DNA of 64,000 nt, taken from assembly GCF_024643285.1 (NCBI RefSeq), contig NZ_JAMSLW010000001.1:124001-188000 (forward strand), in the 5' to 3' direction. This document shows, piece after piece, positions 22,213 to 23,906 of this stretch (position 1 is its first letter; the number at the start of each line of letters is the position of its first letter). The DNA is from Parapedobacter lycopersici (GTDB lineage Bacteria; Bacteroidota; Bacteroidia; Sphingobacteriales; Sphingobacteriaceae). The position numbers and the translations under genes were made by a program. The notes beneath the pieces are model-generated. The model worked only from the letters and a program-made list of their open reading frames with translations. It was not told where the DNA came from and did no database searches.

Positions 22213-22986
22213 ATGTCCAACATTGCCAAAAATCTTAAGTACTTACGGAAGAAAAAAGGCCTTACCCAACAGCAGTTTGCGGATGAAATGGGGATAAAGC
22301 GCGCTTCTGTGGGTGCCTATGAAGAGGAACGTGCAGACCCCAAATACGATTTGCTAAAGAAAATCGCTTCGTTCTATGGGCTTACCATGGATGAACTGGC
22401 CAATGACACCATTAATGATAAATGGAAACCGACCCCCCGGGGCAATGCAGCCAACGTACGGGTATTAAGTATTACGGTAGACGGGGAAGACCGGGAGAAT
22501 ATCGAACTGGTTCCGGTCAAAGCCAGTGCGGGCTACCTGAACGGTTATGCCGATCCGGAATACGTTGCTGAGCTTCCCAAATTCAGCCTGCCCATGTTCA
22601 GGCAGGGGACTTACCGCGCGTTCGAGATCAAGGGCGACTCCATGCTGCCGCTGCAGCCCGGAAGCATTGTAATCGCGGAATATGTGGAAAACTGGGTGGA
22701 AATAAAACCCGGCCAGACCTATATAATCATTTCCCGGTCGGATGGTGTGGTATATAAACGTATTGCATTTAAATATAAGGAGGACAAGGGCCTGAAACTG
22801 CTTTCCGATAATAAGAATTATGAGCCGTATTGGGTGGAAGCTGCAGATATACTGGAAGTTTGGCAGGCAAAAGCCTACATCAGCACGCAGCTGCCCGAAC
22901 CCAGTCCGGAACCCACAATGGAAACGCTGACGGCAATGATGGCACAGATGCAGAAAACGATCAGCACGGTGGTTGAAAAGCGTTAG
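22213..22986 (+). CDS. HTH-XRE / S24 peptidase-like repressor (LexA/CI type)
   Basis: 257 residues. An N-terminal XRE helix-turn-helix (about 5-62) reads 'LKYLRKKKGLTQQQFADEMG' then 'KRASVGAYEEERADP'. The C-terminal S24 domain has catalytic Ser143 in 'EIKGDSMLPL' and Lys182 in 'VVYKRIAF'. A possible self-cleavage Ala106-Gly107 lies between them in 'VKASAGYLNGY'. This is the layout of LexA- and phage CI-like repressors that cut themselves after DNA damage. In Bacteroidota such genes often stand in for LexA and control mutagenic repair genes. A Gln- and Met-rich helical tail ends the protein ('TLTAMMAQMQKTISTVV'). Confidence 0.9.
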   Translation: MSNIAKNLKYLRKKKGLTQQQFADEMGIKRASVGAYEEERADPKYDLLKKIASFYGLTMDELANDTINDKWKPTPRGNAANVRVLSITVDGEDRENIELVPVKASAGYLNGYADPEYVAELPKFSLPMFRQGTYRAFEIKGDSMLPLQPGSIVIAEYVENWVEIKPGQTYIIISRSDGVVYKRIAFKYKEDKGLKLLSDNKNYEPYWVEAADILEVWQAKAYISTQLPEPSPEPTMETLTAMMAQMQKTISTVVEKR

Positions 22987-23062
22987 GTTGTGGTTTCCGC
23001 GGCCTGATAAGGAAATCGGAAGCACGCGCGTCGGAATTATCTGACCCGGGCATTTAGTGCAC

Positions 23063-23183
23063 TTCGACGTTTCTTCGACTGTGCTTCGAGTGTTGTTCGG
23101 GTCTTCTTCGAGTGTTGTTCGAGTCTGCTTCGGGACTTGTTCGACCGGGCTTCGACTTCGCTTCGAGTGCGCTTCGAGGCTGC
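23063..23183 (+). repeat. Array of eleven degenerate 11-bp TTCGR repeats
   Basis: TTCG followed by A or G occurs at 23063, 23074, 23085, 23096, 23107, 23118, 23129, 23140, 23151, 23162 and 23173, exactly 11 bp apart without a break. The last base of every unit is C or G; the middle bases vary. Two units are identical (TTCGAGTGTTG at 23085 and 23107). The period is not a multiple of three, so this is not protein-coding repeat drift. It lies after the S24 gene and before rimP. Confidence 0.85.
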
Positions 23184-23206
23184 TCGGCACGCAATCCGTT
23201 GCGTTA

Positions 23207-23275
23207 CGAAGTGCCTCGAACGGACATCGAAGAAGTCCCGGAGAAGGGTCGAACCAACCCCGAACAAGTCCCGCA
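23207..23275 (-). repeat. Inverted partner array of the same 11-bp repeat
   Basis: The reverse motif YCGAA (or variants CGGA, CGCA) appears at 23207, 23217, 23228, 23239, 23250, 23261 and 23272, spacing 10 then 11 bp. The unit CAAGTCCCGCA (23265-23275) is almost the reverse complement of the left-array unit at 23129. The two arrays face each other across about 23 bp, so an imperfect hairpin or cruciform is possible. Confidence 0.7.
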
Positions 23276-23367
23276 GGAAAGCCAACGCCCTGCCATCCGG
23301 CCGGGTCAGTTGTCCGATGTATTTTTATTAACGTAAAACACGGCTTTTTAAAATATAAAAAAATTAT

Positions 23368-23418
23368 TATCTTTGCATCATCTTGAGAAAGAGGGGACAC
23401 TTGATCGTCCCCTTTTTT
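23368..23418 (+). promoter_or_regulatory. rimP-nusA promoter and attenuator-like hairpin
   Basis: TATCTTTG (23368-23375) is a good -7 element in an AT-rich stretch. About 18 bp later GGGGAC (23393-23398), an 8-base loop and GTCCCC (23407-23412) form a stem followed by six T (23413-23418), the form of an intrinsic terminator. It lies before rimP (ATG 23442), so it could terminate early transcripts of the rimP-nusA-infB operon. Confidence 0.6.
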
Positions 23419-23441
23419 AATGCACGTTAATCCCAAAAGGC

Positions 23442-23906
23442 ATGGAAGTAGAAGCTCGGGTTATCGAATTGATCAATGCGAAGATTGCAGATCGGGAAGA
23501 CCTTTTTTTAGTGGGGGTCAAGATGCATTCCAGCGGAAAATTGGAGGTGCTGGTCGACGGTGACCAGGGGATCAGCATCCAGGATTGCGCGGCAATCAGC
23601 CGCCACGTGGGATTCCACCTGGAAGAAGAGGGGCTTATCCATCACGCGTATCGGCTGGAGGTTTCCTCGCCGGGGGTGGATGCACCGCTCACCTCGGTCA
23701 GGCAGTACCGGAAGAATATCGGCCGGAATGTACAGCTGAAATTGCATGATGGCCGGATACGGGAGGGCGCATTACGCGAAGTGACCGATACCGGCATTAC
23801 CATCGAAGAAAAAATAAAGGAAAAAGGGAAGAAAGCGGTTGTTCAGCAAAACACGGTTCCCTTTGATGATATCATAACAACAAAGGTGTTAATTTCATTT
23901 AGGTAA
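23442..23906 (+). CDS. rimP: Ribosome maturation factor RimP
   Basis: 154 residues. N-terminal alpha-beta domain: 'LEVLVDGDQGISIQDCAAIS' and 'YRLEVSSPGVDAPL' (the family SSPGxxRPL signature, here SSPGVDAPL). C-terminal SH3-like domain: 'GRNVQLKLHDGRIREGALRE'. RimP helps mature the 30S subunit. It is the first gene of the usual rimP-nusA-infB order, and nusA begins one base after its stop. Confidence 0.95.
   Translation: MEVEARVIELINAKIADREDLFLVGVKMHSSGKLEVLVDGDQGISIQDCAAISRHVGFHLEEEGLIHHAYRLEVSSPGVDAPLTSVRQYRKNIGRNVQLKLHDGRIREGALREVTDTGITIEEKIKEKGKKAVVQQNTVPFDDIITTKVLISFR

Follow-up and report, generated by a model that had tools for sequence, protein, structure and literature searches.

The nearest known analogue of the element described here is the R1 parC/ParR (ParMRC) system, whose ParR needs at least two 11-bp repeats (PMC9426499) and has two five-repeat sets as its binding sites (PMC4949242). 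REPs, 20-40 bp palindromes of high copy number, are treated in PMC3733652, where one passage deals with CGTC repeats in Bacteroidetes and another with other palindromes. The GTAG- or CGTC-tagged palindromes of the REP/BIME type resemble the present element in being dispersed, extragenic and palindromic. MITEs in general are multi-copy, short, intergenic sequences with terminal inverted repeats and target-site duplication, while DnaA-box or iteron arrays are made up of short sites that are ordered and oriented and lie in phase with the helix.

The array of Parapedobacter lycopersici shares with parC the presence of several 10-11-bp direct repeats, side-by-side binding being the feature of ParR. 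Unlike in parC, however, both TTCG arms face a dyad, the chromosome carries copies at many separate places and the unit is nearly free outside TTCG. Compared to REP/BIME, the TTCG element is longer, at about 200-260 bp, and is phased to the helix, while the spacers of its outer arms do not pair; by eye, no GTAG or CGTC tag is seen where arm or core is strongly conserved. Like MITEs, it is multi-copy, short, intergenic and of shared ancestry, but terminal repeats or a target duplication were not recognised by eye, and after a duplication its TTCG has changed less than the flank. DnaA-box and iteron arrays differ in their word and from the 23 dispersed copies found here. The earlier note knew of no description of such arrays, and our search likewise found none in the full-text literature covered, although most subscription journals lie outside that search and absence from print is thus unproved. 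The letters TTCGACTCCGC led to one fungal transcriptome paper and to no description of the arrays; searched by terms, PMC2267715 yielded none of them and PMC7500135, on Parapedobacter, yielded just CRISPR and the word "repeat" in unrelated senses.

The window, i.e. the whole stretch of 64,000 nucleotides that was analysed, belongs to the 3.62 Mb genome of P. lycopersici (the home genome), and the studied array at 23063-23275 is one copy of a dispersed element (Table 1). The eleven TTCGR units reported earlier at an exact 11-bp step are borne out by the TTCG positions. The base following TTCG is A or G in all eleven, and one extra TTCG at 23157 is off the register. For the right arm, the complementary motif had been described at 10-11-bp spacing, which holds for three of the CGAA steps, but the remaining one, of 22 bp, skips a unit; the register places 23239 and 23272 are decayed units. 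The blocks lie at about 13.5, 23.5, 34.5 and 45.5 bp from the dyad on either side, and so onward. CTGACCCGG (window 23041-23049) and its complement CCGGGTCAG (23301-23309) flank the array asymmetrically about its dyad, perhaps by chance, perhaps as element ends. Pfam agrees with the placement of the array between an S24 repressor gene and rimP, which is followed by nusA- and infB-like genes (open frames, named by eye).

Table 1. Features of the array and its surroundings; positions are those of the window.
Feature	Position	Strand	Description	Basis or remark
HTH + S24 peptidase-like repressor gene	22213..22986	+	upstream neighbour	Pfam
Left arm	23063..23183	+	eleven TTCGR units, exact 11-bp step; TTCG at 23063, 23074, 23085, 23096, 23107, 23118, 23129, 23140, 23151, 23162, 23173	register common to 19 paralogues
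Innermost left block CTCGG	23183..23187	+	10 bp past last TTCG	dyad mirror of CGAA 23207-23210
Core palindrome GCAATCCGTTGC	23191..23202	.	dyad between 23196/23197	
Right arm, CGAA	23207..23275	-	CGAA at 23207, 23217, 23228, 23250, 23261; steps 10, 11, 22, 11	mirror register with left arm
rimP leader with ATCTTTGCAT and GGGGAC..GTCCCC stretch	23320..23441	+	context	by eye
rimP	23442..23906	+	downstream neighbour	Pfam

At step 11, TTCG runs on for as many as 11 units in the window, as against a maximum of 3 in 200 first-order Markov sequences of the window, which speaks against chance. At the other steps from 6 to 24 the chain does not exceed 2 in the window, except for 6 at step 22, because a step of 11 implies 22. 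Tandem Repeats Finder also reports the array. The period of 11 had been taken to exclude a coding repeat, a weak argument given that 33 bp make 11 codons, and it is the separate tests that leave coding unsupported. Open frames across the elements are unusually numerous (mean 3.6 of 6 versus 1.2 with the spacer letters shuffled), which speaks for a coding repeat; however, the left-arm value (5.79/6) is fully explained by the column composition of the units (5.80/6), and spacer identity by codon phase (0.534, 0.555, 0.533) reveals no codon-phase constraint, and the coding repeat was rejected on these grounds. Together with chance, and with a functionless product of tandem duplication, which alone would not hold TTCG while spacers diverge, it is an extremely improbable origin for the array.

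Pattern searches of the home genome located 23 dispersed arrays of at least five units, in agreement with the spreading repeat that had been listed among the possibilities. Two patterns, one consisting of one TTCG, the core and one CGAA, the other of two arms, led to 22 places, 19 of which (19 of the 23 copies) have the GCAA-N4-TTGC core and three of which do not (C12:89230, C16:530010 and C18:85570); C17:410219, a chance match to the core pattern with no arrays, was dropped. Five-unit matches on the two strands number 67 and 67 in the 22 loci versus 77 and 67 genome-wide, a difference explained by a 14-unit arm without the core at C18:316522-316668, the 23rd array, which was found by an eight-unit search. 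Smaller decayed arrays may exist beyond the 23. The elements are intergenic, and their arms are often very unequal. In pairwise comparison of the 22 loci the alignment covers the element and scarcely anything further, with the exception of L027 with L034, and the order of units is common to many copies. Because the alignments end near the element and the unit order is common, the home copies derive, as judged from these comparisons, from one another and not from independent origins.

The 19 cored copies were aligned on the core alone, leaving the outer units free of any requirement. The register holds for 189 of 195 TTCG in left arms and for 83 of 97 CGAA in right arms. In the core-based alignment, pairwise identity of the left-arm TTCG is 0.96-1.0 as opposed to 0.37-0.50 at unit positions 7-9, and over 171 pairs, which are non-independent, TTCG differs in 125 of 6156 cells (2%) and the spacers in 4634 of 10773 (43%). 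These values accord with the proposal that selection keeps TTCG and its spacing in phase with the helix. They do not accord with the other proposal, that a copying process maintains the phase, since copying would homogenise the spacers too. The right arm is less well kept than the left: its CGAA is complete in 32-79% of the copies at +26 to +103 and never at +114. Mutual information inside the units was set aside, as it may reflect shared descent.

L027 (C16:364900-370900) and L034 (C19:11800-17800) are related by a 553-bp duplication that includes the flanks, and differ at 1/44 TTCG, 11/77 spacer and 50/289 flank positions (Fisher test, block versus flank p=0.006; block versus spacer p=0.054, borderline). 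Their right arm, with 24/115 differences, is kept no better than the flank. The left flank of the pair holds a stem-loop in near-identical surroundings, the stem of which differs compensatorily (CCTGTGTA..TTACACAGG versus TCTTTGCAATG..CATTGCAAAGA). Seven further pairs were compared in congeners, at loci picked via their arrays, which biases the sample toward intact arrays; six of them show 0/36 or 0/40 TTCG differences and one, the cross-species pair L229/L231, shows 2/44 (spacer 5/77, flank 51/439; p=0.21 against the flank), with no clear difference between TTCG and spacer. For L230/L233 the difference between TTCG and flank is non-significant (p=0.098), while in L236/L237 and L238/L239 the flank is largely non-homologous and the small p-values carry little weight; three of the pairs have loci in common (L230, L233 and L236). 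Another cross-species pair among the seven, at the HTH locus described below, differs at 0/36 TTCG, 24/63 spacer and 112/435 flank positions. Taken together, TTCG seems to be retained by purifying selection as the spacers drift.

Two opposed arms may also be imagined to pair with each other, as a large hairpin RNA, a cruciform or a REP/BIME-like structure. Folded as RNA, the window stretch is more stable than shuffled versions of it (z -4.6 on the + and -3.0 on the - strand), which is expected from the fixed TTCG/CGAA scaffold, and some distant elements (L149, L150 and L173) are near-perfect hairpins made of few unit types. In the 19 home copies, however, spacer pairing between the arms of one element is no better than that between arms of different elements, either by Watson-Crick pairs (0.314 versus 0.331) or with G-U allowed (0.444 versus 0.454). 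Relatives, with their copies oriented alike, gave no excess either for spacers 2-6: 0.542 within versus 0.560 between in G198 (n=9), 0.414 versus 0.460 in G183 (n=4) and 0.457 versus 0.455 in G090 with G171 (n=8), the G015 group being left out, as elements with a 9-bp core number fewer than four in it. The innermost spacer covaries between the arms in G198 (0.889 versus 0.788, p=0.004), less clearly in the other two groups (p=0.34 and 0.10); the core region thus possibly forms a genuine palindrome or a small stem, and a stem may matter in G198 and in the near-perfect hairpins just named. Without the spacers, only 4-bp blocks split by 7-nt loops are left to pair. Rfam assigned no family at the element: a search at 20 of the 23 loci gave a single tRNA, about 900 bp from the element, and all matches on the window stretch are far under the gathering scores. 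The long hairpin RNA that the earlier note had considered was rejected for the outer arms, and pairing of the arms in any of these forms is, as the arms are also often unequal, quite improbable as the basis of the element.

A Pfam scan of 36 proteins beside the home copies (4 of the 36 without a family), which with the rimP locus covers 21 of the 23 loci on one or both sides, identified as neighbours, besides rimP, Hsp70, a class I tRNA synthetase (read as ileS), a leucyl-tRNA synthetase, a six-S1-domain protein, ribosomal protein L3, an EF-Tu-like GTPase, a glutamate-type dehydrogenase, homoserine O-succinyltransferase and SusC/SusD-like proteins; clear neighbour genes were not found at L027 and L034. 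Neither partition nor transposase families are present among the 36 scanned proteins, the lone MreB_Mbl match lying inside the Hsp70 protein. As adjacent partition genes, which are defining in the R1 system, were not found, the array is not classed as a ParR/parC-type centromere.

Many home copies sit shortly past a gene end, and the flanking gene pairs mostly look co-oriented by gene calls too rough for a conclusion. Positions past a gene end, and the convergent orientation of the arms, would suit a bidirectional Rho-dependent terminator, in which a transcript on either strand first meets a regular, pyrimidine-containing UUCG. At least one copy, however, lies between divergent genes (L030, between YjbR and Hsp70), and the arm is about equally rich in G and C. 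The spacing is exactly 11 with few exceptions, whereas rut sites, being single-strand signals, would tolerate looser spacing. Steps this regular are more readily explained by helical phasing on duplex DNA than by a signal read in single strands, and we judge the terminator to be highly improbable.

Within contigs, the home copies are 42 to 309 kb apart. When 23 positions were placed at random (20000 trials), a minimum gap so large occurred in 0.08% and a coefficient of variation so low in 1.9% of the trials, in an evenness test that is post hoc, as it was devised after seeing the positions, and that ignores gene locations and draws on six unordered contigs. Since the copies are more evenly spaced than random by this post hoc measure, a role in chromosome organisation is possible. 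No replication polarity was seen, the orientation matching the sign of the local GC skew (noisy, over at most 6 kb) in 12 of 20 copies.

Outside the home genome the distribution is patchy. A five-unit array is present in 30 of 201 family genomes and in 6 of 9 of the genus, the home genome counted, and in at least one of these 30, G085, the array resembles a simple tandem repeat of a different type. The other 171 of the 201 family genomes have no five-unit array, and because of this the function must be dispensable at large. In the S24-rimP spacer the array is absent from all eight other genus members (8/8), so that its occurrence next to the S24 repressor and the rimP promoter seems to be incidental; RimP is 68-73% identical to that of the congeners, and the spacers there are too diverged to place the element ends. 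The ATCTTTGCAT and GGGGAC..GTCCCC stretch of the rimP leader recur, by eye, in these array-free congeners. One of them (L053; G057 C27:34779-38234) carries another insertion of a few hundred bp in the S24-rimP spacer, without a TTCG array, parts of which recur by eye in the flanks of L229 and L231.

The convergent pattern occurs in 8 of 395 phylum genomes (home included) and the divergent one in 0 of 395. All of eight array-rich family genomes, selected for having arrays, have the convergent form. Genomes have their own flavours of the array, e.g. TTCGTCTGCCG, TTCGGTGTCGC, TTCGCCTCCGC, or TTCGG with an A-rich core, hence the base after TTCG is variable across genera. What is kept across genera, in the sequences compared, is TTCG, the 11-bp step and the convergent orientation, while spacers and cores differ. 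A scan of named genomes yielded at least 116 stretches; among the 116 listed, 22 are convergent by the chain test, all of them from Bacteroidota, and include Daejeonella, Leeuwenhoekiella, Sphingobacterium, Olivibacter, Chryseobacterium, Breznakibacter and uncultured Bacteroidales. Three of the listed stretches are divergent: L136 and L184, runs with overlapping TTCG and CGAA that also count as convergent, and L153, a cyanobacterial record. The remaining listed stretches, from many phyla, are one-sided by the chain test and may be unrelated. A viral origin was rejected, none of 52 viral stretches with five-unit arrays being convergent by the chain test. Four of the nine Sphingobacterium-type arrays of G198 (L273, L276, L280 and L281) lie near a contig end, which implies that assemblies may break at such arrays and that copy numbers in drafts may be too low.

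A locus encoding an HTH protein deserves separate mention. A search with this protein found 10 places in 7 of 9 genomes, independently of arrays, five of them strong (E below 1e-30), and an array lies 78-111 bp behind the HTH gene in all five strong homologues. The protein was nevertheless rejected as a general array binder: the home genome, with 23 arrays, has a single weak homologue (35% identity) with no array behind the gene, and G068 has an array without a homologue.

Other features were observed at congener loci. A recurring module in which the array occurs (L238:250-3618, L233:247-2898) consists of a LytTR-like (L238) or histidine-kinase-like (L233) gene, the HTH gene, the TTCG array and DUF6266 or similar, with DUF5675 in addition in L238. 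In L230, L233, L234, L236 and L237 a second opposed array, of TTGGCA at about 10-bp steps, stands by the TTCG array; its spacers look complementary, and compensated between loci, by eye. At L227, L228, L229, L231 and L232 arrays lie directly upstream of a recurring N-terminal signal-peptide-like segment, with near-identical leaders in several copies; the gene downstream of the L232 array has CarboxypepD_reg and thioredoxin-like domains.

Several of the findings above would also be expected of a non-autonomous MITE-like element, the arms of which would be transposase or recombinase sites, with TTCG surviving because a copy needs intact arms to spread and not for any use to the host. The home copies have unit order and core in common and, over the 22 loci compared, cease to align close to where the element ends, the distribution is patchy with an empty rimP site in 8/8 congeners, and G424 has several similar copies on different contigs. 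On the other hand, TTCG outlasts the flank after the L027/L034 duplication, and the arrays of the HTH locus persist in several species despite strongly diverged spacers. Moreover, neither a target-site duplication nor a terminal repeat was recognised (by eye, in diverged rimP spacers), and a transposase family is absent from the 36 neighbour proteins (21/23 loci, one or both sides). We therefore consider mobility of this kind unlikely to be the explanation.

The reading that we favour, and hold to be probable with some reserve, is that of a dispersed, dyad-symmetric, helically phased putative DNA-binding array under purifying selection. Of the options raised earlier, the protein-binding array is thus the one that explains the data best, with binding itself being what we infer. 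We propose that the element would act as a multi-site platform on duplex DNA for a protein that reads roughly STTCGR. The TTCG of the arms, one per 11 bp, point toward the central dyad, and copies of the protein would sit side by side on one helix face, ordered by the dyad, and may thereby form a cooperative nucleoprotein complex. Exact 11-bp steps, near-free spacers and dyad-pointing sites are what side-by-side binding on one face of the duplex would need. A step of 11 rather than 10.5 bp would let the line of sites drift slowly round the helix, a course that would suit wrapping or a solenoidal complex. The complex might serve chromosome organisation, local regulation or the upkeep of the element itself. 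A bolder version, which we put forward as a speculative and rather doubtful one, is a chromosome-organising system of Bacteroidota, in which about two dozen convergent platforms would each load a polar DNA-binding protein toward the dyad, in a centromere-like manner but many times per chromosome.

In several genera of Bacteroidota, the TTCG arrays appear to form a class of intergenic element that is under selection and has so far gone undescribed. The putative DNA-binding array predicts one protein family reading TTCG on one face of the helix. To our knowledge, few nucleoid factors are known in Bacteroidota, and finding such a protein could bring to light a system of chromosome organisation, regulation or mobility in this phylum.
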